39,277 bases of DNA, taken from positions 1 to 39,277 of IMG/VR virus record IMGVR_UViG_3300047325_000148. One strand, given 5' to 3'. Shown in pieces: positions 2,591 to 23,977 of the stretch. This stretch comes from a virus. The notes below the pieces were generated by a model. The model was not told the origin of the DNA. It saw only the letters and a program-made list of their open reading frames with translations, and searched no databases. Every line of letters begins with the position of its first letter. The first letter of the stretch is position 1. The translations under genes were made by a program, and so were the position numbers.

Positions 2591-3718
2591 TCATATTATA
2601 TCCGGATCAAGTTTAGGTGCAACTGACTTCTTAATATCAATTTGTTCTGGTATAACACTGTTATCGTCTAAAGTTGTTTGATTTGTATTGTTTATGAACG
2701 AACTTAATACTCTATTCGTTGGTAGCCAAGGTGCTCTGTAATCAACTTCGACTCTGCGCCATATACCATAATTTTTTATTCCGCTATCATATACAAATAA
2801 TTGCGGAGGACTATAATCAGTTCTGAGAAAATAATCGCCAACGGTGGGAGAGTCTGGATATGCTGTTCCGCTATTAACAGGTTTGCTTTGGTTAGGAGGG
2901 ATGCCGTCGCCATTCCATATCGTAGCAATCTTATTAATATCTCCTGCTAATACATAAAAATGTTGACCTTGTAAGTTTCTGAATGGTACTTCGACTTGCG
3001 CTTGTGTTTGAAGTGCATTCGTAATTGCAAGTTCTTGATTATAAGTGCTCAAAAGGTCAGATAATGTTGTAACGTTTCCGCTTCCATCTGTGTTTGGTTG
3101 AATAGGATCACCGTTACTATCTGTGGCAGGCATGCCAAGAATACTTTGATATTCTTGGCTGTCTGTTATTGGTTGGCATTTAACACGCCATATATGCGGC
3201 CACCAGGTAGGACTATAACCTTCTGCAGGTCTAGATCCCTCATCTACAACATAAAATTTATTGATAGCATCAGATCCTAACACCAAATCATCTCGTTGAT
3301 GTAAAACTTCGATTACATCGCCGCTCATTAAACGACGACCTATTTGATTTACCATATCGTTTTGATGAAAGGTAATAAAAACGGTATCATTACTAATAAA
3401 TAGACCAAATTGTCTTAAATCAAATTCAGTATCAGATAATGGATAATGACCTTTCAAACTATAAACATCTGGGTCATACTTTCTATCACGTACTTCCATA
3501 TTAAGCATATCTTGAATCTGCAATTCAGGTGGTGCAGTATCGGTTGCAGTATTGACCATTGTTGCATCACCGTTACTTGATGAGTCTGCTGGACCAAGAT
3601 ATTTGTGTATCCAAAATTCTGTACCACCTATCCTATATTGCTCCGAAACATGGCGATCAAAAAACTCAAAATCTTTCGATTTTATACCGGCTCCCTTCCA
3701 TAAAGTCAATGGTGGCAT
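2591..3718 (-). CDS. gp14: Neck protein, T4 gp14-like
   Basis: gp14 forms the neck with gp13 and joins the packaged head to the tail. The protein resembles the aquatic T4-like gp14 family: N-terminal PPLTLWKGAG, IGGTEFWIHKYLGP, then a FDLRQFGLFI segment, MSGDVIEVLHQRDD, and a W-W-P-H-I-W-R-V-K region. About 375 aa, longer than T4 gp14 (256 aa), with a hydrophilic C-terminal extension. The open frame extends 4 codons further to a TTG at 3730, but I chose ATG 3718 because GGA lies 7 bases ahead of it and the protein then starts MPPLTL. Upstream at 3764-3771 is a late-promoter-like box. gp13 is far away on the other strand (12555), unlike T4 where 13 and 14 are adjacent. Confidence 0.72.
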   Translation of the reverse strand: MPPLTLWKGAGIKSKDFEFFDRHVSEQYRIGGTEFWIHKYLGPADSSSNGDATMVNTATDTAPPELQIQDMLNMEVRDRKYDPDVYSLKGHYPLSDTEFDLRQFGLFISNDTVFITFHQNDMVNQIGRRLMSGDVIEVLHQRDDLVLGSDAINKFYVVDEGSRPAEGYSPTWWPHIWRVKCQPITDSQEYQSILGMPATDSNGDPIQPNTDGSGNVTTLSDLLSTYNQELAITNALQTQAQVEVPFRNLQGQHFYVLAGDINKIATIWNGDGIPPNQSKPVNSGTAYPDSPTVGDYFLRTDYSPPQLFVYDSGIKNYGIWRRVEVDYRAPWLPTNRVLSSFINNTNQTTLDDNSVIPEQIDIKKSVAPKLDPDII

Positions 3719-3763
3719 AATTTTTTCCAAAATTTGATATTTGATCTTTTAATTGTCATCATA

Positions 3764-3771
3764 TATTTATT
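3764..3771 (-). promoter_or_regulatory. Candidate late promoter box (AATAAATA)
   Basis: On the minus strand the sequence reads CAAATAAATATATG, similar to the T4 late promoter TATAAATA. It ends about 45 bases before the gp14 start at 3718 and overlaps the stop of the upstream ATPase-like gene. The surroundings are AT-rich, so a chance match is possible. Confidence 0.35.
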
Positions 3772-4633
3772 TGAGTTCGTATTCTTTTTGAAATCGTTCA
3801 AGCCCGATGTGGTCAATTTGCTCGAGTCTCCATGCATCATTTCTACCATACATATTATACCAAGGCATATATGCAATTTTCCAATCTAGATTTCCAAATA
3901 AATTGTATTGTTTGAGATTTCCGGCTATTATTATTTTAGAAGTATTATTCATACATCTTGATAAATCATCAATGGCAGAGTATGCAATATACTCCAGATT
4001 ATCGATTATAATTAAATTATGATCTACATATCTTCCGCGAAAACAATCTTTTGTTAGGTTAGTAAATTCAATTATTGATTCATTATCTAAAACTAGTTGA
4101 TGATTTTGATCGACTTTTCTGTTAAATATTTCTTTTTTAATAGTTTCTATACATTCTTGTACTTTATCTGGTGTTATTGCTCCGACATCAATATGAAAAA
4201 CTCGTCTTTCTGGAGCATATCCAATTTTTTCTATTATTTCAGCATCTGTCGGAAAATAATAATCATCAATAATTGATGGCGGATTTAAATAATTATATAC
4301 CATCTGTTTTATATGTTGTGACATTAGAAAATTATTTGTTAATACCACAATTTTTGAGCCCGGATGAGTATCTGCATAGTATGTCGCGTATGAAGCTAGC
4401 AATGCAGTTGCGCCGACCTGCCTTGATTTCTTTATAGCAACATGTTGAAATTTTTCAAATAATTTTAGTGCAGAAACTTGATGATCATACAATTTAAAAT
4501 CAACGAAACCTTTTGACGGATCTTGTAGTTTATGTTTCTTCTCAATATATTCTTGAGCATTTGAAGGTTCTTTAATTTTATTTTCTTCAAGATGAGATTT
4601 TATCAGCGCAAGCGCTTGTTCTAATTTTTTCAT
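3767..4633 (-). CDS. Terminase large-subunit-like ATPase domain lacking catalytic residues and nuclease domain
   Basis: 288 aa corresponding to the N-terminal motor domain of gp17-type terminases, in order: YDHQVSALKLF, Walker A region S70-R-Q-V-G-A-T76, a LDNESIIEF strand, RGRYVDHNLIIIDN (Walker B, 207-212), a coupling strand TSKIIIAGN, and an ending RFQKEYELK that parallels RFEREYNCK in this phage's own TerL at 22568-23977. Two key residues are altered: the Walker A Lys is Ala75 (T4 gp17 SRQLGKT) and the Walker B D-E is D211-N212. The RNase H-like nuclease domain is absent. It is therefore probably ATPase-dead: a diverged paralogue kept for regulation or structure, or a decaying duplicate. 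The frame is intact, arguing against simple decay. Start ATG 4633 follows AAAGGAAATTAAA. It is upstream of gp14 in the same direction. Confidence 0.7.
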   Translation of the reverse strand: MKKLEQALALIKSHLEENKIKEPSNAQEYIEKKHKLQDPSKGFVDFKLYDHQVSALKLFEKFQHVAIKKSRQVGATALLASYATYYADTHPGSKIVVLTNNFLMSQHIKQMVYNYLNPPSIIDDYYFPTDAEIIEKIGYAPERRVFHIDVGAITPDKVQECIETIKKEIFNRKVDQNHQLVLDNESIIEFTNLTKDCFRGRYVDHNLIIIDNLEYIAYSAIDDLSRCMNNTSKIIIAGNLKQYNLFGNLDWKIAYMPWYNMYGRNDAWRLEQIDHIGLERFQKEYELK

Positions 4634-4695
4634 TTTAATTTCCTTTGGACGATTTCCGCCAATAGTTTATCTAATACGATTTCCGATCAGACTAA

Positions 4696-4705
4696 CTTAT
4701 TTATG
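4696..4705 (-). promoter_or_regulatory. Candidate late promoter box (CATAAATAAG)
   Basis: Minus-strand CATAAATAAG lies about 60 bases upstream of the terminase-like ATPase start at 4633. It has the same core as boxes before several other genes here. It sits back-to-back with a sigma70-like promoter on the plus strand. Confidence 0.35.
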
Positions 4706-5216: not shown

Positions 5217-5864
5217 CTACCAAGAAGCATTAGAAGCATATTTAGAATTAAGTAGTTCTGCCTGACAAGCTAAAACTGATTTCTTATTTACAGAACCTCG
5301 ATATTTATCAATAATATCAAGTAAATCGCGCATGATATTATCTTTTTTATCTAGCATCTCAATTTTACAGTCGTTTGATAATTTTATCAAACGAAGGACT
5401 GGTAGATCCGAATAATAAGTAAGAGAAAGTTGCTGGTTAATTTTTGGAAGAAATTCGAGAGAATGAATTGGATTATCATACATAGAGAAACATTCTATGT
5501 TTATATCATCTGGACAACCTTCTAGCGATGTAAGAAGGTTGTTCGATATATCAAAAAATTTCAAATTACTAAATTTTGGTAACCACTCTAATGAGGTTAA
5601 TTTATTGTAATCAATTTCAAAATGATTACCATTATAATTAGTCGGAAAACCTTCTAAAGTTGTTAATTTCAGATTTCTAATCAAACATTCCCCGCCGATA
5701 TGAGAAAATTGAAAAGGTAATTTTTCACATTTGTTAATAACCGAGGTTCGTACATGTACATAGCCCGGTACTATAAGTTTTCCATCTTTGGATATATCCA
5801 ATGGTGCATTTGTAAAAAAATACCTATGAAAAATATTCGATAATGTATTTAATTTTTTATTCAT
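5217..5864 (-). CDS. LRR-like phage protein with C-terminal NASW tag
   Basis: 215 aa. The middle contains leucine-rich-repeat-like units of the phage L-T-S-L-E-G-x-P type: LTTLEGFP, LTSLEWLP, LTSLEGCP, HSLEFLP. It ends with the tag VLACQAELLNSKYASNASW, shared with four paralogues in the window. No enzyme motif, signal peptide or membrane segment. Such LRR-like proteins are frequent in large phages and are of unknown function; LRRs usually bind proteins. Last gene of the minus-strand operon that includes the dNMP kinase and SLOG-like genes; 11 bases separate it from the gene upstream. The start at 5864 has a GAG just upstream. Confidence 0.75.
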   Translation of the reverse strand: MNKKLNTLSNIFHRYFFTNAPLDISKDGKLIVPGYVHVRTSVINKCEKLPFQFSHIGGECLIRNLKLTTLEGFPTNYNGNHFEIDYNKLTSLEWLPKFSNLKFFDISNNLLTSLEGCPDDINIECFSMYDNPIHSLEFLPKINQQLSLTYYSDLPVLRLIKLSNDCKIEMLDKKDNIMRDLLDIIDKYRGSVNKKSVLACQAELLNSKYASNASW

Positions 5865-7315: not shown

Positions 7316-7326
7316 TAATAAATAAG
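7316..7326 (+). promoter_or_regulatory. Candidate late promoter for tail sheath (TAATAAATAAG)
   Basis: Contains ATAAATA at 7318-7324, 32 bases before the sheath ATG, and is followed by a purine-rich leader with AGGCAGGGAA as ribosome site. The rest of the 7203-7356 intergenic space holds only this box and the minus-strand sigma70-like promoter. Confidence 0.45.
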
Positions 7327-14021: not shown

Positions 14022-14029
14022 GATAAATA
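14022..14029 (+). promoter_or_regulatory. Candidate late promoter for gp19 (GATAAATA)
   Basis: GATAAATAAG begins at 14022; the 8-base box ends 26 bases before the TTG start of the tube gene. Same box and spacing as upstream of 20068, 24063 and 29128. Confidence 0.5.
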
Positions 14030-14055
14030 AGTTTACAATAATTGAGGATAATACT

Positions 14056-16894: not shown

Positions 16895-17367
16895 TGGCAA
16901 AAAACGATATCGTTGCACAAACAATACAAAAACAAATTGCGCTTAACAGTGGTGATATATCAATCAGCACTGCTGGTAGCGGAGCACAATGGGTTAATTC
17001 AAGTACCGGTACTCCGATTAGTACAACAGGAGATGCAACGGGATTTGTTCTTAGCAATCTACCTCCAGTGTACCCATCAAAAACAAGCACTGCCCAAATT
17101 TATAATTATGCTCAAATGTTGTTTTCGGGAGCAAATGTACCTACAGCAGCCACACAAGTTATGGCAAATCTTGCTACCTATTATGTAAATCAAAGTGGTG
17201 ATAGTGTACAGTCGATTTATAATAACGGTGTATTGTCATCTAAGTTTCTTGCAAGTATTAACACATTGCGCGCTCCCGGCAGTCAAATAGGTTATACATT
17301 GACTACACTAATTCCTAATTGGACAAATAATCCTATACTTGCACCAAATCTATTGGCTGTAACATGA
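16894..17367 (+). CDS. Hypothetical virion-associated protein
   Basis: 157 aa, Ser/Thr/Asn/Ala-rich, no membrane segment, no cysteines, no recognised motif. The composition resembles its structural neighbours. It begins on the last bases of the baseplate/tube-associated gene and its own stop overlaps the ATG of the next gene (ATGA), so it is translated as part of the same message. A tail or head accessory role is an inference from position only. Confidence 0.6.
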   Translation: MAKNDIVAQTIQKQIALNSGDISISTAGSGAQWVNSSTGTPISTTGDATGFVLSNLPPVYPSKTSTAQIYNYAQMLFSGANVPTAATQVMANLATYYVNQSGDSVQSIYNNGVLSSKFLASINTLRAPGSQIGYTLTTLIPNWTNNPILAPNLLAVT

Positions 17368-17906
17368 TTGACGAAAAATTATTAGTGAAATTATTTTCTT
17401 TCACAGAAGGATATTCTATAAAAAATAATAAAATTGATTCAAACGGATCTGTTGGTTCATATTCTATTAGAAAATTGAAGACTATACCTTTTCAATTTAA
17501 CAATGTTAATGGATCATTTCGCATTGATCTTCTTGGTGTTATTTCATTGAAAGGGTCGCCTATATTTGTAGGTAATGATTTTAGTTGTAGGGCAAATAAG
17601 ATAACAAATTTCATCGGCGGCCCGATACATATCAACGGATCGTTTGATGCAATAAATAATAAACATGTAACATCATTACAAGGTTTACCAGATTATGTTG
17701 GTCGAAATATTGAAATTGAATGGTTGCCAAACCTTCCGATATTACCGTTATTAACCAAACCCTATTTTGTTGAACGTAATTCTTGGCCGGATCCGGTTTG
17801 GCAAATATTACTTACCTATTATAGAAAGAAGCCACTAAAGAAATCTATACTTGCATGTCAGAAAGAACTAATAACTGCAGGTTTTGTAGGCAACGCTTCT
17901 TGGTAA
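17364..17906 (+). CDS. LRR-like phage protein with C-terminal NASW tag
   Basis: 180 aa. The core has degenerate repeat units (VISLKGSP, ITNFIGGP, VTSLQGLP) of the phage LRR-like type with an xxxxNGSF-like turn between them, then LPILPL and the C-terminal tag KKSILACQKELITAGFVGN-ASW. It overlaps the preceding gene by ATGA and is followed 7 bases later by gp4. Shares its repeat style and tag with the paralogues at 5217, 18342 and 18890. Function unknown; likely soluble. Confidence 0.75.
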   Translation: MIDEKLLVKLFSFTEGYSIKNNKIDSNGSVGSYSIRKLKTIPFQFNNVNGSFRIDLLGVISLKGSPIFVGNDFSCRANKITNFIGGPIHINGSFDAINNKHVTSLQGLPDYVGRNIEIEWLPNLPILPLLTKPYFVERNSWPDPVWQILLTYYRKKPLKKSILACQKELITAGFVGNASW

Positions 17907-17913
17907 ATACTAG

Positions 17914-18342
17914 ATGGCAAAATATAGTCAAGGCATCTTTATACCCAAAAACCCAAAGAAAATACTTGGGAAATCTAAAATAGAATTTAGGTCCTCTTGG
18001 GAGCTACGTGTTATGCAGTTCTTGGATCAATCTCCAAATGTTATTCAATGGAGCAGCGAAAGCATTGCTATTCCTTATAGAGATCCTGTTAGTGGCAAAA
18101 ATCGCCAGTATATACCAGACCTGTTAATTCTTTTCAAAGATAAAAACAATAAACAAAAATTAGAACTAGTAGAAATTAAACCACACAAAGAATCCTTGAT
18201 GGAAAATGCTAAAAGTAAACGAGATAAATTAGCTGTATTGACCAATACAGCTAAATGGGCAGCCGCTATGGCCTGGTGTGCTAAAAATGGAGTAACTTTT
18301 AGAATTTTAACTGAACATGATATTTTCATAACAGGTAAATAA
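17914..18342 (+). CDS. gp4: Head completion nuclease, T4 gp4 (50)-like
   Basis: gp4 is needed to finish the filled head before tail attachment and has a TnsA-like endonuclease fold. 142 aa (T4 gp4 is 150). It starts with an F-I-P-K-N-P-x-K motif, then K-I-E-F-R-S-S-W-E, FLDQSPNVIQWSSESIAIPY, R-Q-Y-I-P-D69-L, and L-V-E87-I-K89-P: the Asp ... Glu-x-Lys nuclease signature. The C-terminal WAAAMAWCAKNGVTFRILTE parallels T4 KAAQSLAEKRGIKFRILTE. The start follows the LRR-like gene by 7 bases and its TAA overlaps the next ATG (TAATG). It is sandwiched between tagged LRR-like paralogues, unlike T4. Confidence 0.87.
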   Translation: MAKYSQGIFIPKNPKKILGKSKIEFRSSWELRVMQFLDQSPNVIQWSSESIAIPYRDPVSGKNRQYIPDLLILFKDKNNKQKLELVEIKPHKESLMENAKSKRDKLAVLTNTAKWAAAMAWCAKNGVTFRILTEHDIFITGK

Positions 18343-18896
18343 TGATAACATTTGAAAAAATAGAAAAATATTTTGCCGTCAAAAATAAAAAAATACAAAA
18401 TGAATGTATTATAGATAGAAATACCGGTCTTATTAATACTACCAACGACTCGACATTAATAATGCATAAAAACGCAACAAAAATACCATTTAAATTTGGA
18501 ATAGTTGGCAATTTTGAATGCACCGAAACTGGTTTAACTACTTTAGAAAATTCGCCAAACGAAGTTATGGGAAATTTTGGTTTTTATTGTTACAAAAATA
18601 ATTTATCAAATCTTGTTGGCGGCCCATCAATTGTAAAAAATATATATTCGTGCTTTAACAACTCATTAACTTCTTTAGAAGGAGCGCCGCAATCAGTCGG
18701 TGGTTATTTTTATATTACTTGGTCAGAAAATTTACCATTACTGAGATTGGTAAGATATAAAAACATACAAGCATACAATGATCAAGTAAATGAGATTATA
18801 AACAAATATTGTAATCATAAGCCATTAAAAGAAGCCATTTTATTATGTCAGAAAGAACTAATAGATAATGGCTTTGTAGGAAACGCGTCATGGTAA
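18342..18896 (+). CDS. LRR-like phage protein with C-terminal NASW tag
   Basis: 184 aa. Repeat units are LTTLENSP, LSNLVGGP and LTSLEGAP with short connecting strands (VMGNFGFYCYKNN, VGGYFYITWSEN), then LPLLRLV and the C-terminal tag KEAILLCQKELIDNGFVGN-ASW. Starts in TAATG overlap with gp4 and overlaps the next gene by 7 bases. The tag is nearly identical to that of 17364-17906 although the bodies differ, suggesting selection on the C-terminus or gene conversion. Function unknown. Confidence 0.75.
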   Translation: MITFEKIEKYFAVKNKKIQNECIIDRNTGLINTTNDSTLIMHKNATKIPFKFGIVGNFECTETGLTTLENSPNEVMGNFGFYCYKNNLSNLVGGPSIVKNIYSCFNNSLTSLEGAPQSVGGYFYITWSENLPLLRLVRYKNIQAYNDQVNEIINKYCNHKPLKEAILLCQKELIDNGFVGNASW

Positions 18897-19468
18897 TGAC
18901 AGCTACTGAACAGAAAGTAAAATTATATTTTCAAGTTGACGCACCGGCAAAGATTTACATATCTGATAATTTTGTAAGCATAAACGGAAATTGTTCGGCT
19001 ACCGGGTTTGGCGAAGCTTGGAAAAAATTCAAACAACTGCCTTTTAATTTTCACAAGGTAAGCGGCAGATTCACTATTACTGTAGATTGTATTGGCTTAA
19101 CTTCCCTAGCTGGTTGCCCAGAAGATGTTGGAACATTTGTATGTGCTGCAAAACAATTAAAATCATTAATTGGTGGTCCAAAAATTTGTCGCGGTGATTA
19201 TATAATAAGCGAACTTATAAATTTAACTTCGTTAGACGGATTACCAACTCCAGACAATATGATGCGCGGTGCGTTATATGTGATCTTAAATAAACAATTG
19301 CCAATATTAAGATTATTCACTTATAAGTTTACTGCCCTCTATTATTGGGAAGAAAAAGAAATACATCGGATAATTTCAAAATATGTAAATATGCCTGTTA
19401 AAAAAGCAATTTTAGCCTGTCAAAAAGACTTAATAGAACATGGATATATAGCAAACGCTGGCTGGTAG
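18890..19468 (+). CDS. LRR-like phage protein with C-terminal NAGW tag
   Basis: 192 aa. LRR-like units LTSLAGCP, LKSLIGGP and LTSLDGLP, then LPILRLF and the tag KKAILACQKDLIEHGYIAN-AGW. Overlaps the preceding paralogue's end by 7 bases. Together with the two upstream copies it forms a tight three-member cluster interrupted only by gp4. Same unknown function; the clustering suggests tandem duplication within the packaging operon. Confidence 0.75.
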   Translation: MVMTATEQKVKLYFQVDAPAKIYISDNFVSINGNCSATGFGEAWKKFKQLPFNFHKVSGRFTITVDCIGLTSLAGCPEDVGTFVCAAKQLKSLIGGPKICRGDYIISELINLTSLDGLPTPDNMMRGALYVILNKQLPILRLFTYKFTALYYWEEKEIHRIISKYVNMPVKKAILACQKDLIEHGYIANAGW

Positions 19469-20035: not shown

Positions 20036-20043
20036 GATAAATA
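20036..20043 (+). promoter_or_regulatory. Candidate late promoter (GATAAATA)
   Basis: GATAAATAAG at 20036-20045; the 8-base box ends 24 bases before ATG 20068, with TTAGGACC as ribosome site in between. Almost identical to the box before gp19. Confidence 0.5.
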
Positions 20044-20067
20044 AGTATATAAAAATTAGGACCATAG

Positions 20068-20883
20068 ATGAAAAGTTTTCTAAATTATCTCATTGAGAGC
20101 AGTCAGACATATCATTATGTGATTAAGTTCGTGCATAAGATAGATGATGACCAAATCAATACCATTGAAACATATTTAAATAGATTTGATCTAATTGATA
20201 TTAGTCCCTTAGAAGAAATTGAAAATGATAATATGGATTTCTATAACAACTCTTATAAAACAATTTATTCACTTGAGGTCGAATTAGGCATGCCTGTTAG
20301 TAGCTATGTTCTTCTACAAGATTTGCATAGTGCATTACATCTTAATGAAAGAGATATGATTGTCCGCGGAGCTTCTGAACCTGTGCAAGTTGCTACAGAA
20401 GATAGTTTATTTAGAAATAAAGTAGCTGCTGATGCAGCAGAAAAAGGTCTTGTATCAAAAGGCAGATTAAGCACTGATCGTTTTTATGATGATGCCGAGC
20501 AACCGCCACAAGAAGATGTATTTGGTGATCAATATAATAAGAAATTACTTGATTATCTTGCCGACATTGCTGAAACACGCCCTTCAAATGAAGTAGAACC
20601 ATCAGCACCATTGTTTAGCTGGTTAGAAATGAAAAATGCTAAAAAACCAGCACCTGATACTGATCAAGATTTAACAGATTTCAACGCTGGGCACGATACT
20701 CCAAAGCCAGTGTACAAAAAAGTAAATTCAAACAAAACACCAATTGATCCTAAGTTCACCGGATCAAATGGTAATTTTGATGACGGAGTAACCCATAATA
20801 CTGCATTTTTTAAAGATGCTAAAAACGGAAAGCCTGTGACTGTTACAGCACCTAGAGCGGCAGGAAAGAGCAAAGGAAAATAA
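20068..20883 (+). CDS. Conserved phage protein with capsid-targeting-like N-terminus
   Basis: 271 aa. The first residues MKSFLNYLIES resemble the T4 capsid-targeting sequence (MKTYQEFIAEA) and contain L-I-E, a fit to the T4 prohead protease site [LI]-x-E. The next ~100 residues (VIKFVHKIDDDQ, IDISPLEEIE, YSLEVELGMPVSSYVLLQDL, IVRGASEP) match a conserved phage protein of unknown role that I recall in several large phages, with a predicted alpha/beta domain. The C-terminal half is hydrophilic and Pro/Lys/Asp-rich, ending in a basic tail (RAAGKSKGK). It lies between TerS and TerL and is probably a head component, inner-head protein or assembly factor; that is inference from the N-terminus and position. 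Confidence 0.62.
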   Translation: MKSFLNYLIESSQTYHYVIKFVHKIDDDQINTIETYLNRFDLIDISPLEEIENDNMDFYNNSYKTIYSLEVELGMPVSSYVLLQDLHSALHLNERDMIVRGASEPVQVATEDSLFRNKVAADAAEKGLVSKGRLSTDRFYDDAEQPPQEDVFGDQYNKKLLDYLADIAETRPSNEVEPSAPLFSWLEMKNAKKPAPDTDQDLTDFNAGHDTPKPVYKKVNSNKTPIDPKFTGSNGNFDDGVTHNTAFFKDAKNGKPVTVTAPRAAGKSKGK

Positions 20884-21907: not shown

Positions 21908-22528
21908 ATGGCATTCGGTACCCCAGAATTTATTAAAAAACCTAACTCTAAGGTAGGTTATACAAAGGCACAAATAGAAGAAACTCTTAAATGTGCATCA
22001 GATCCACTTTATTTTTTAGATCATTTTATGTGGGTCCAGCACCCAGTAAAAGGTAAAATACCTTTTAAAACTTATCCATATCAAAAAGAATTAATAAACG
22101 CATTCTTCAATTATAAAGATGTTGTGGTATTATTCCCACGCCAAGCTGGAAAAACTATCTGTGCTGCCGGATATTTACTTTGGTATGCAATGTTTAATCC
22201 AGACTCAACTATTTTGGTAGCTGCTAATAAATTCAAAGCAGCTACTGAAATTATGGATCGTATTAAATTTGCATATGAAGAACTACCTAATCATATAAAG
22301 GCTGGTATTGATGTATATAATGTGCAAACCATTAAATTTGATAATGGAAGTAGAATAGTTAGCACTGCTACTTCTGCGGATTCTGGACGTGGTATGTCTA
22401 TTACTTTATTATACTGTTTGGCGGGCGAATCTACTGTCACAGTAAGAAATAAAATCACAGGCGAAATTGAAAAAGTCTCATTAATTGAACTGAAAAATAA
22501 ATTACAAATGACGAGCATAGATTCATGA
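21908..22528 (+). CDS. gp17: Terminase large subunit, N-terminal half fused to a split-intein N-part
   Basis: N-extein plus N-intein, 206 aa. Residues 1-169 are the first part of the TerL motor: LYFLDHFMWV, YPYQKELINAF, Walker A F-P-R-Q-A-G-K-T (about 76-83), ILVAANKFKAA, IKFDNGSRI, and TSADSGRGMSITLLY leading into Walker B. At Cys170 the TerL homology is replaced by a 37-residue intein start (CLAGESTVTV..., see separate entry), then stop codons TGA TAA. The missing Walker B Asp-Glu is in the next cistron (22568-23977). On its own this half cannot hydrolyse ATP for packaging. Start ATG 21908 lies 3 bases after the Usg-like gene, with no strong ribosome site, suggesting coupling. In-frame continuation across the stops shows it derives from a single contiguous gene. 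Confidence 0.88.
   Translation: MAFGTPEFIKKPNSKVGYTKAQIEETLKCASDPLYFLDHFMWVQHPVKGKIPFKTYPYQKELINAFFNYKDVVVLFPRQAGKTICAAGYLLWYAMFNPDSTILVAANKFKAATEIMDRIKFAYEELPNHIKAGIDVYNVQTIKFDNGSRIVSTATSADSGRGMSITLLYCLAGESTVTVRNKITGEIEKVSLIELKNKLQMTSIDS
22415..22525 (+). other. Split intein N-part (IntN, 37 aa)
   Basis: Starts with the nucleophile Cys1 and the block A pattern C-L-A-G-E-S-T-V-T-V, followed by an ISLIEL-like strand (VSLIELKNKL) and a short tail MTSIDS. Only block A is present; block B lies on the other fragment. This is the atypical early split described for TerL inteins such as AceL-TerL from an Antarctic lake metagenome (N-part about 25 aa). Confidence 0.85.
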
Positions 22529-22567: not shown

Positions 22568-22903
22568 ATGCAACATTATTATGAAAATAAAGATTATGAG
22601 ATATTAACTCCGAACGGCTGGGAAGACTTCGATGGATTGATCGAAAATATATCCATTAATAAAAATTCCACAACCATTTCATTAGATAATGGGTATACCA
22701 TAACTGCTACAAATGAGCATAGATTTTATGATGAAAATAATAATGAAATATTGGTTAAAAATTTAAAAATATCAATGTTATTACAGACTGATATCGGTCC
22801 GTCAAAAATTATAAATCTAAAACATACTAATTTAGAAAATACATTTGAAATTTTTAATTCTAAAAATCACATTATATATGCGGAAGGTTTCAAAAGTCAT
22901 CAA
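22568..22903 (+). other. Split intein C-part (IntC, 112 aa)
   Basis: Begins MQHYYENKDYEILTPNGW; contains block B T-N-E-H (48-51, within TATNEHRFYDENNNEILVKNL minus its last residue), block F-like FEIFNSKNHIIYAEGF, and block G S-H-Q followed by Cys+1 of the C-extein. The last residue is Gln112 rather than the usual Asn. No endonuclease domain (no room between B and F). The segment EILTPNGWEDFDGL parallels ILSPNGFSNFNGI of AceL-TerL. Confidence 0.85.
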
Positions 22904-23977
22904 TGTGACGAACTTGGATTTCTTCGTCCAAATATTGCAGAAGCATTTTTTACATCAATGAGTCCAACGTTAGCCACCGGTGGTAAATGTATCATTACGT
23001 CAACTCCAAATTCCGACGAAGACAAGTTTGCCGAAATATGGTTTGGGGCAATTAATAATATAGATGATTACGGAAATGAAATACCAGGTGGGGTTGGCAA
23101 AAACGGATTTAAAGCTGTTACCTGCAATTGGAATGACATACCTGGTCGTGACGACGAATGGGCCGAAACTGAAAAAAACAAAATTGGTATAGATCGATTT
23201 GAGCGAGAATACAATTGCAAATTTGTTACCGCCGAAGACACTCTCATATCTGGTGCAAAACTCATTCAGTTAAAAGGTGTTGATCCAATTAAAAAAACAC
23301 ATAATCAAGTTAGATGGTATCAACCACTATCAGTTGATAAATCATATCTTGTAGCACTTGATCCCGCGGCGGGGGTTGGTAAGGATAATTCTGTTATTCA
23401 AGTTTATAGTATTCCTGATATGACGCAAGTAGCAGAATGGAGTCATAATAGAACTTTGGTATATCAGCAAGTCAAATTAATGCAAAATATCATAAATTAC
23501 ATATTTGATGAGATCAAAAAAATGCCGGACAATAGGGGTGATCCAGAAATATTCTTTACATTTGAAAATAATTCGATAGGCCAAGCTGCATTAGAAGCTG
23601 TTAATGAGATCGGTGAGGAAAAATTCAGTGGCATTCTTTTAAGCGAACCAAAGAGTAAGGGGCGAAAAGGGTTAAACACTAATGGCAGAAGTAAAAATCT
23701 AGCATGTATGAAGTTGAAATCATTGGTGGAAAATAACAGAATTACCCTCTTTAGTAAAGCAATGATAAAAGAACTCAAATTCTTCGTCGGCAAGGGTAAT
23801 AGTTTTGAAGCAAAAACTGGTGAACATGATGATTGTGTTATGTCGACATTATTATGCATCCGAATGATGCAAATAGTGTCCGGATGGGACGAAAAATTTG
23901 AAAACATGCTAAAAGATAGCCTTGATAGTGACTATGAGGACGAAGATTTTGAAGCCCCAATGCCAATGATATTTTAA
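22568..23977 (+). CDS. gp17: Split-intein C-part fused to terminase large subunit C-terminal half
   Basis: 469 aa: IntC (1-112) and C-extein (113-469). The C-extein opens with C-D-E-L-G-F, completing Walker B (LLY|CDELGF after splicing), then the coupling motif C-I-I-T-S-T-P-N, RFEREYNCKF, and the RNase H-like nuclease with V-A-L-D-P-A-A-G, FFTFENNSIGQAALE and GEHDDCVMSTLLC acidic residues, all intact. Spliced TerL would be 526 aa, normal for aquatic T4-like phages. ATG 22568 has GGAAAG 5 bases upstream, placed in the 39-base gap. The ATG is in frame with the first half, separated by TGA TAA plus 12 codons. Packaging thus requires trans-splicing of two separately translated chains. Confidence 0.9.
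   Translation: MQHYYENKDYEILTPNGWEDFDGLIENISINKNSTTISLDNGYTITATNEHRFYDENNNEILVKNLKISMLLQTDIGPSKIINLKHTNLENTFEIFNSKNHIIYAEGFKSHQCDELGFLRPNIAEAFFTSMSPTLATGGKCIITSTPNSDEDKFAEIWFGAINNIDDYGNEIPGGVGKNGFKAVTCNWNDIPGRDDEWAETEKNKIGIDRFEREYNCKFVTAEDTLISGAKLIQLKGVDPIKKTHNQVRWYQPLSVDKSYLVALDPAAGVGKDNSVIQVYSIPDMTQVAEWSHNRTLVYQQVKLMQNIINYIFDEIKKMPDNRGDPEIFFTFENNSIGQAALEAVNEIGEEKFSGILLSEPKSKGRKGLNTNGRSKNLACMKLKSLVENNRITLFSKAMIKELKFFVGKGNSFEAKTGEHDDCVMSTLLCIRMMQIVSGWDEKFENMLKDSLDSDYEDEDFEAPMPMIF

Follow-up and report, generated by a model that had tools for sequence, protein, structure and literature searches.

Rak2-like jumbo phages encode, beside the large terminase subunit TerL, a nuclease-less "truncated terminase" that was noted as unusual (PMC5259590), a remark restated for Eneladusvirus (PMC7760394). 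These motif-less paralogues are conserved next to TerL and are a known oddity without an explanation so far. We found them in 14 records overall; those named BF_0272, CBB_274, GAP32_268, Kaldavass and XbC2 are 229–236 amino acids (aa) long and encoded directly before TerL. Here we describe a further ATPase-only paralogue, from a T4-like phage with a full TerL as well: the 288-aa product ("window protein") of a gene at positions 3767–4633, minus strand, of the IMG/VR virus record IMGVR_UViG_3300047325_000148, whose positions 1 to 39,277 are the whole stretch of DNA analysed ("the window", 39,277 nucleotides). Like the Rak2-like proteins (CBB_274, GAP32_268, BF_0272, XbC2_270), it consists of the ATPase domain alone and ends at the same boundary. 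Unlike them, it contains two pieces of portal sequence and a Lys-first P-loop, and its gene lies 17 kb from terL on the opposite strand rather than directly upstream of it.

The phage's own TerL, taken without its intein (526 aa), aligned with the window protein at 23% identity over the length of the latter (E-value 3e-17), leaving a central gap. A profile of 20 TerLs gave 68.5 bits, divided between two stretches, aa 25–111 and 180–287. An earlier reading made from the sequence alone (the sequence-only reading) had called this a terminase-type ATPase paralogue in an intact frame without a nuclease, and all three points were borne out: the gene is one intact 288-codon frame with an ATG start, the nuclease domain is absent, and the open reading frame (ORF) stops at the usual ATPase-domain boundary, where FQKEYELK aligns with FEREYNCK of the phage's own TerL. 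The AlphaFold2 model, for which TerL and portal segments had been aligned as input, had a mean predicted local distance difference test score (pLDDT) of 76.7, with values of ~70 to 96 in most ATPase parts. It adopted a TerL ATPase fold homologous to that of T4 gp17; the Walker B Glu and the nuclease of gp17-type proteins are absent. Its best PDB matches were T4 gp17 ATPase structures (E-value 1e-10), and CBB_274 was among the best matches in the viral structure library. In a phylogenetic tree, the window protein was a long branch that settled neither with the Rak2-like paralogues nor elsewhere; it lay outside the well-supported clade containing the TerL of the same phage. By these comparisons, the window protein is an old, strongly diverged T4-type TerL paralogue cut down to the ATPase domain.

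The correspondence to TerL is not full-length, as the sequence-only reading had held, since aa ~111–178 are portal-derived, which that reading had missed. Pfam Portal_T4 (PF07230) matched aa 129–174 with 30.8 bits (E-value 1.6e-7; curated cut-off 22.9), and a profile constructed from 12 portals resolved two pieces, A and B, with significance assessed by 2000 shuffles per piece (Table 1). Piece A reads NPPSIIDDYYFPTDAE against NPLSILEDYFFPQTAD in the portal. The order is swapped: portals have B and then A, and the window protein has A and then B. The source is the stem/clip region of a T4-type portal (gp20), of which only ~70 residues are represented; the whole portal fold (wing, stem, clip and crown) is not present. 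The replaced stretch is bounded by the strand following the P-loop helix and by the "DNGS" strand. A tblastn search with the portal-like part returned true portals in many phages. Among 9,533 ORFs from 357 loci, only the window protein matched both the TerL and the portal profiles, and the portal profile found no significant match in any TerL or other TerL paralogue. No portal ORF was found in the window itself. In its "IKxEI..R" form, piece B resembles the portals of the window phage's clade and not that of T4; it is 33–46% identical to all portals, whereas the clade portals are 58–100% identical to each other there; this divergence argues for an old, diverged acquisition rather than misassembly. 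Judged by the profile matches, two T4-type portal pieces, one entering and one following the clip, replace a TerL stretch in permuted order. Portal pieces inside a TerL-type ATPase domain appear to be new, and the case provides one instance of portal sequence incorporated into a motor domain. Speculatively, homing-endonuclease breaks at intein sites in portal and TerL genes would be one route to permuted fragments.

Alignment agrees with the sequence-only reading that Ala75 occupies the Walker A Lys position and Asn212 the Walker B Glu position. Its description of both motifs as dead holds for Walker B, where the Glu is lost, and is overstated for Walker A: calling that motif dead is unsafe because K69 fills the Lys-first position of TerLs that do not have the canonical Lys. 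Some large terminases have a Lys-first Walker A motif. Deviant Walker A motifs in large terminases were reportedly described by Mitchell and Rao in 2004 (cited in PMC5727402). Among the full-length TerL ORFs collected (some counted repeatedly via overlapping loci), 134 had the canonical Walker A Lys, and in none of these 134 was the second residue ahead of the Arg a Lys; those without the canonical Lys came only from Microcystis phage Mel-JY01 (KSRQMGIS) and LR756508 (KARQMGIS), and these were Lys-first. The P-loop Lys of the window protein thus appears to have been relocated, not simply lost, and the case suggests that this residue can be relocated. In the Rak2-like proteins, both the Walker Lys and the Glu are lost, with P-loops RECGIT (BF_0272), RGAGLS (CBB_274), RGSGLT (GAP32_268) and RGCGLT (Kaldavass and XbC2), and Walker B motifs FFDD (BF_0272), IYDD (GAP32_268) and IYDS (CBB_274, Kaldavass and XbC2). 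The catalytic Walker B Glu (DE) was present in all full-length TerLs collected; the window protein (DN) and LR756500 have Asn in its place, and members of the GAP32 group have Asp or Ser. In T4, switching the Walker B Asp-Glu to Glu-Asp led to tighter ATP binding and no hydrolysis (PMC9958956). N212 is a better sign of inactivity than A75: the window protein may still bind ATP via its Lys-first P-loop and probably does not hydrolyse it.

Nuclease-less TerL paralogues extend beyond the Rak2-like clade to uncultured huge phages and the window phage. A 270-aa ORF of the uncultured phage LR756500 resembles the window protein in having no nuclease, a Walker B motif IIDN and the same C-terminal boundary; it differs in lying beside TerL (after it) between homing-endonuclease genes, in having no portal pieces and in its P-loop, SSRQMGIS, which contains no Lys. 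In LR756501 and LR756508, TerL-like ORFs of 390 and 288 aa, respectively, are likewise nuclease-less and Lys-first (KSRQxGIT), but keep the Walker B DE and do not contain portal sequence. Sinorhizobium phage phiN3 gp94 is a short TerL-like ORF beside TerL, with intact motifs (GKT, DE) and an earlier end. A small TerL-like P-loop protein of T4 encoded beside denV (phrog_1488; 216 aa; 1042–1692 of locus L143, corresponding to 61841–62491 of record OL964735) was not accepted as a member of the same family: its motifs are intact (GRQSGKS and IIDE) and the similarity is weak.

Closer relatives were sought in several ways. Peptide-pattern scans of viral and genome collections detected no close relatives; as a single-sequence peptide scan detects only close ones, distant relatives may exist. 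Scanning with an alignment of two sequences recovered true portals and the LR756500 phage itself, and nothing else. When viral contigs were scanned for the portal junction in its permuted order, nine stretches emerged, none of them a relative. The loci around the downstream gene were compared in 67 relatives, and tblastn found no copy of the window protein there; among the matches listed, the ORFs upstream of that gene were different genes, most of them encoded on the opposite strand. Plasmid, defence and NCBI family searches returned nothing relevant to the window protein, and a literature search worded for inactive TerL paralogues returned nothing.

The expression signals of the gene comprise a ribosome-binding site and a motif, ATAAATAAG, 63–71 bases upstream of the ATG (Table 1). 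The window contains four copies of this motif (4696–4704, 7318–7326, 14023–14031 and 20037–20045), a number that is unremarkable against the 1.6 expected. Every copy is on the correct strand and at most 80 bases ahead of a gene start; the other three precede the tail sheath gene, the tail tube gene and an ORF at 20068. Positions of this kind account for 3.9% of the window, and four out of four would arise by chance with a probability of ~2e-6, a value to be read with the caveat that ATAAATAAG was picked as a motif only after being noticed before the window-protein gene. The motif is probably a late promoter of this phage; its fit to a T4-like late promoter suggests late expression without proving it.

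The best explanation, which we hold tentatively, is that the window protein is a late-made, non-hydrolysing packaging accessory derived from a TerL/portal mosaic. A late-made ATPase paralogue with a portal stem/clip-like segment would most plausibly be a non-catalytic partner at the portal–motor interface. It is at the portal clip that gp17 docks, followed later by gp13 (PMC9958956). Under this explanation, the protein would be made late together with the structural genes and would serve DNA packaging without hydrolysing ATP; its ATPase-domain surfaces would pair with TerL and its portal-like segment with the portal-clip/motor/neck interface, so as to modulate how the motor assembles or how it gives way to the neck. 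The Rak2/GAP32-type paralogues beside TerL may play a similar pseudo-subunit role. Late expression is only suggested, and the steps that follow it are ones we infer. If the protein is functional, motor/portal regulation at the level of the clip becomes testable with one small protein.

Several points weigh against this explanation. Searches of viral contigs, phages, plasmids and the genomes of bacteria and archaea yielded no homologue of the TerL/portal mosaic. Contigs of related phages, 216–518 kb long, showed only the true TerL and portal. Residues 119–147 of the insert were predicted with a pLDDT below 50, and the structure match is not independent of homology because TerLs were in the AlphaFold2 alignment. 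Binding to TerL or the portal is likewise something we infer. The sequence-only reading, which had suggested a regulator, a motor subunit or a neck-associated plug as possible roles, had named absence from close relatives as evidence against its proposal, and this is largely what the long contigs show. Its claim that the gene is maintained therefore comes down to the intact frame and the expression signals.

The main rival to the packaging accessory is a recombination relic, in which a duplicated terL fragment gained portal fragments by illegitimate recombination and has since drifted as a functionless gene whose frame is still open. We regard this as a serious possibility, somewhat short of likely. 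The protein is a singleton on a long branch, is not found in related phages, has lost the catalytic Glu and carries its portal pieces in permuted order, as a relic might. Against a relic speak the 288 codons kept open at such divergence from both TerL and portals, the gene's own ribosome site and late-promoter-like motif, and a P-loop Lys that appears relocated instead of simply lost.

A more elaborate version of a functional mosaic seems unlikely: a silent motor subunit whose permuted portal stem/clip segment would let it present both portal–motor partners as an interface mimic, acting as a packaging switch, a plug, a competitor of rival motors or a decoy for TerL/portal sensors. Quite doubtful, too, is the narrower proposal of a poison subunit or decoy: as a silent mimic of TerL and portal, the protein would block the packaging motors of competing phages or occupy host immune sensors for terminase and portal (Avs). 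Inactive motor subunits can be dominant negative, which speaks for it; yet no defence or counter-defence family was matched, a late-type promoter means late timing for a decoy, the phage's own motor should suffer from a poison subunit too, and the binding is conjectural in either form. Very improbable is a metagenome assembly error fusing terL-like and portal sequence. The protein comes from a single contig and no second contig containing the TerL/portal junction was found (records very near the window were possibly left out of that search), but every join is in frame inside one ORF, and the divergence of piece B from portals and of the TerL part from its own TerL means that neither part copies a normal gene. 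Membership of another ATPase family, PhoH, which the sequence-only reading had recognised as the kind of finding that would overturn it, was rejected as scarcely credible: the weak PhoH matches at aa 156–246 reflect general P-loop likeness, PF02562 scored 19.3 bits against a cut-off of 27, a GAP32-type TerL-paralogue profile scored higher over aa 176–247 (17.2 bits) than PhoH (13.5 bits, with a profile made from few sequences) or TerL (11.9 bits), the flanks are TerL, and the nearest solved folds are those of T4 gp17.

The real TerL of the phage, which the sequence-only reading had described as split, is not simply broken: the interruption is a split intein resembling the AceL/GOS-TerL type. 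Stop codons separate a 37-aa N-intein (22415–22525) from a 112-aa C-intein (22568–22903), sizes near those of the naturally split TerL inteins GOS-TerL (37/115 aa) and AceL-TerL (25/104 aa) (PMC11766414). Trans-splicing would yield an intact TerL, and the paralogue would thus not be needed to complement a broken motor. Inteins were also seen elsewhere. In LR756500 (locus L111, 135–4375), the TerL intein lies at Walker A, and homing-endonuclease-like ORFs lie on both sides of the TerL paralogue. In one relative, IMGVR_UViG_3300045919_000325 (loci L103 and L104), the T4-type portal gene carries an intein within the clip. It is flanked by RRIPNRTGGG and SAIDASYNPIG and falls precisely in the gap separating piece B from piece A, the two that are swapped in the window protein.

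Table 1. Positions of the window protein, its parts and the other features discussed
Feature	Position	Strand	Basis
Nuclease-less TerL paralogue (window protein) with portal-derived insert, 288 aa	3767..4633	-	ORF, TerL and portal profiles, alignment to own TerL
TerL-like N part, aa 25-111	4301..4561	-	TerL profile, 43.9 bits
P-loop K69-S-R-Q-V-G-A75-T76; canonical Lys missing, Lys-first position occupied	4406..4429	-	alignment
Portal piece A, aa 111-132; profile columns 339-360 (after clip)	4238..4303	-	9.9 bits, 0/2000 shuffles
Portal piece B, aa 130-178; profile columns 285-333, starts at T4 gp20 residue 269	4100..4246	-	42.5 bits, 0/2000 shuffles; PF07230
TerL-like C part, aa 180-287, reaching the ATPase-domain end	3773..4096	-	TerL profile
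Walker B strand with D211-N212 (Glu lost)	3998..4015	-	alignment
Ribosome-binding site AAAGGA of the window-protein gene	4641..4646	-	sequence inspection
Late-promoter-like motif ATAAATAAG before the window-protein gene	4696..4704	-	motif positions vs gene starts
Downstream virion structural gene (phrog_11591)	2591..3730	-	PHROG match
Real TerL N half, N-intein at its end	21908..22528	+	comparison with window protein, intein sizing
Real TerL C half, starting with C-intein	22568..23977	+	comparison with window protein, intein sizing

The downstream neighbour, previously labelled a neck gene, does encode a virion structural protein; the neck label itself derives from the PHROG category and gene order only. 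A ubiquitin-like match of this protein at aa 266–307 (GDGIPPNQ...) was set aside as most likely due to chance, with an E-value of ~1 against a single ubiquitin that is inflated in multi-ubiquitin chains. Elsewhere in the window, five ORFs (1450–1932, 5217–5864, 17364–17906, 18342–18896 and 18890–19468) share an ending like ACQKELI..GF.GNASW, some of them with leucine-rich-repeat-like bodies, and look like a lineage-specific gene family.
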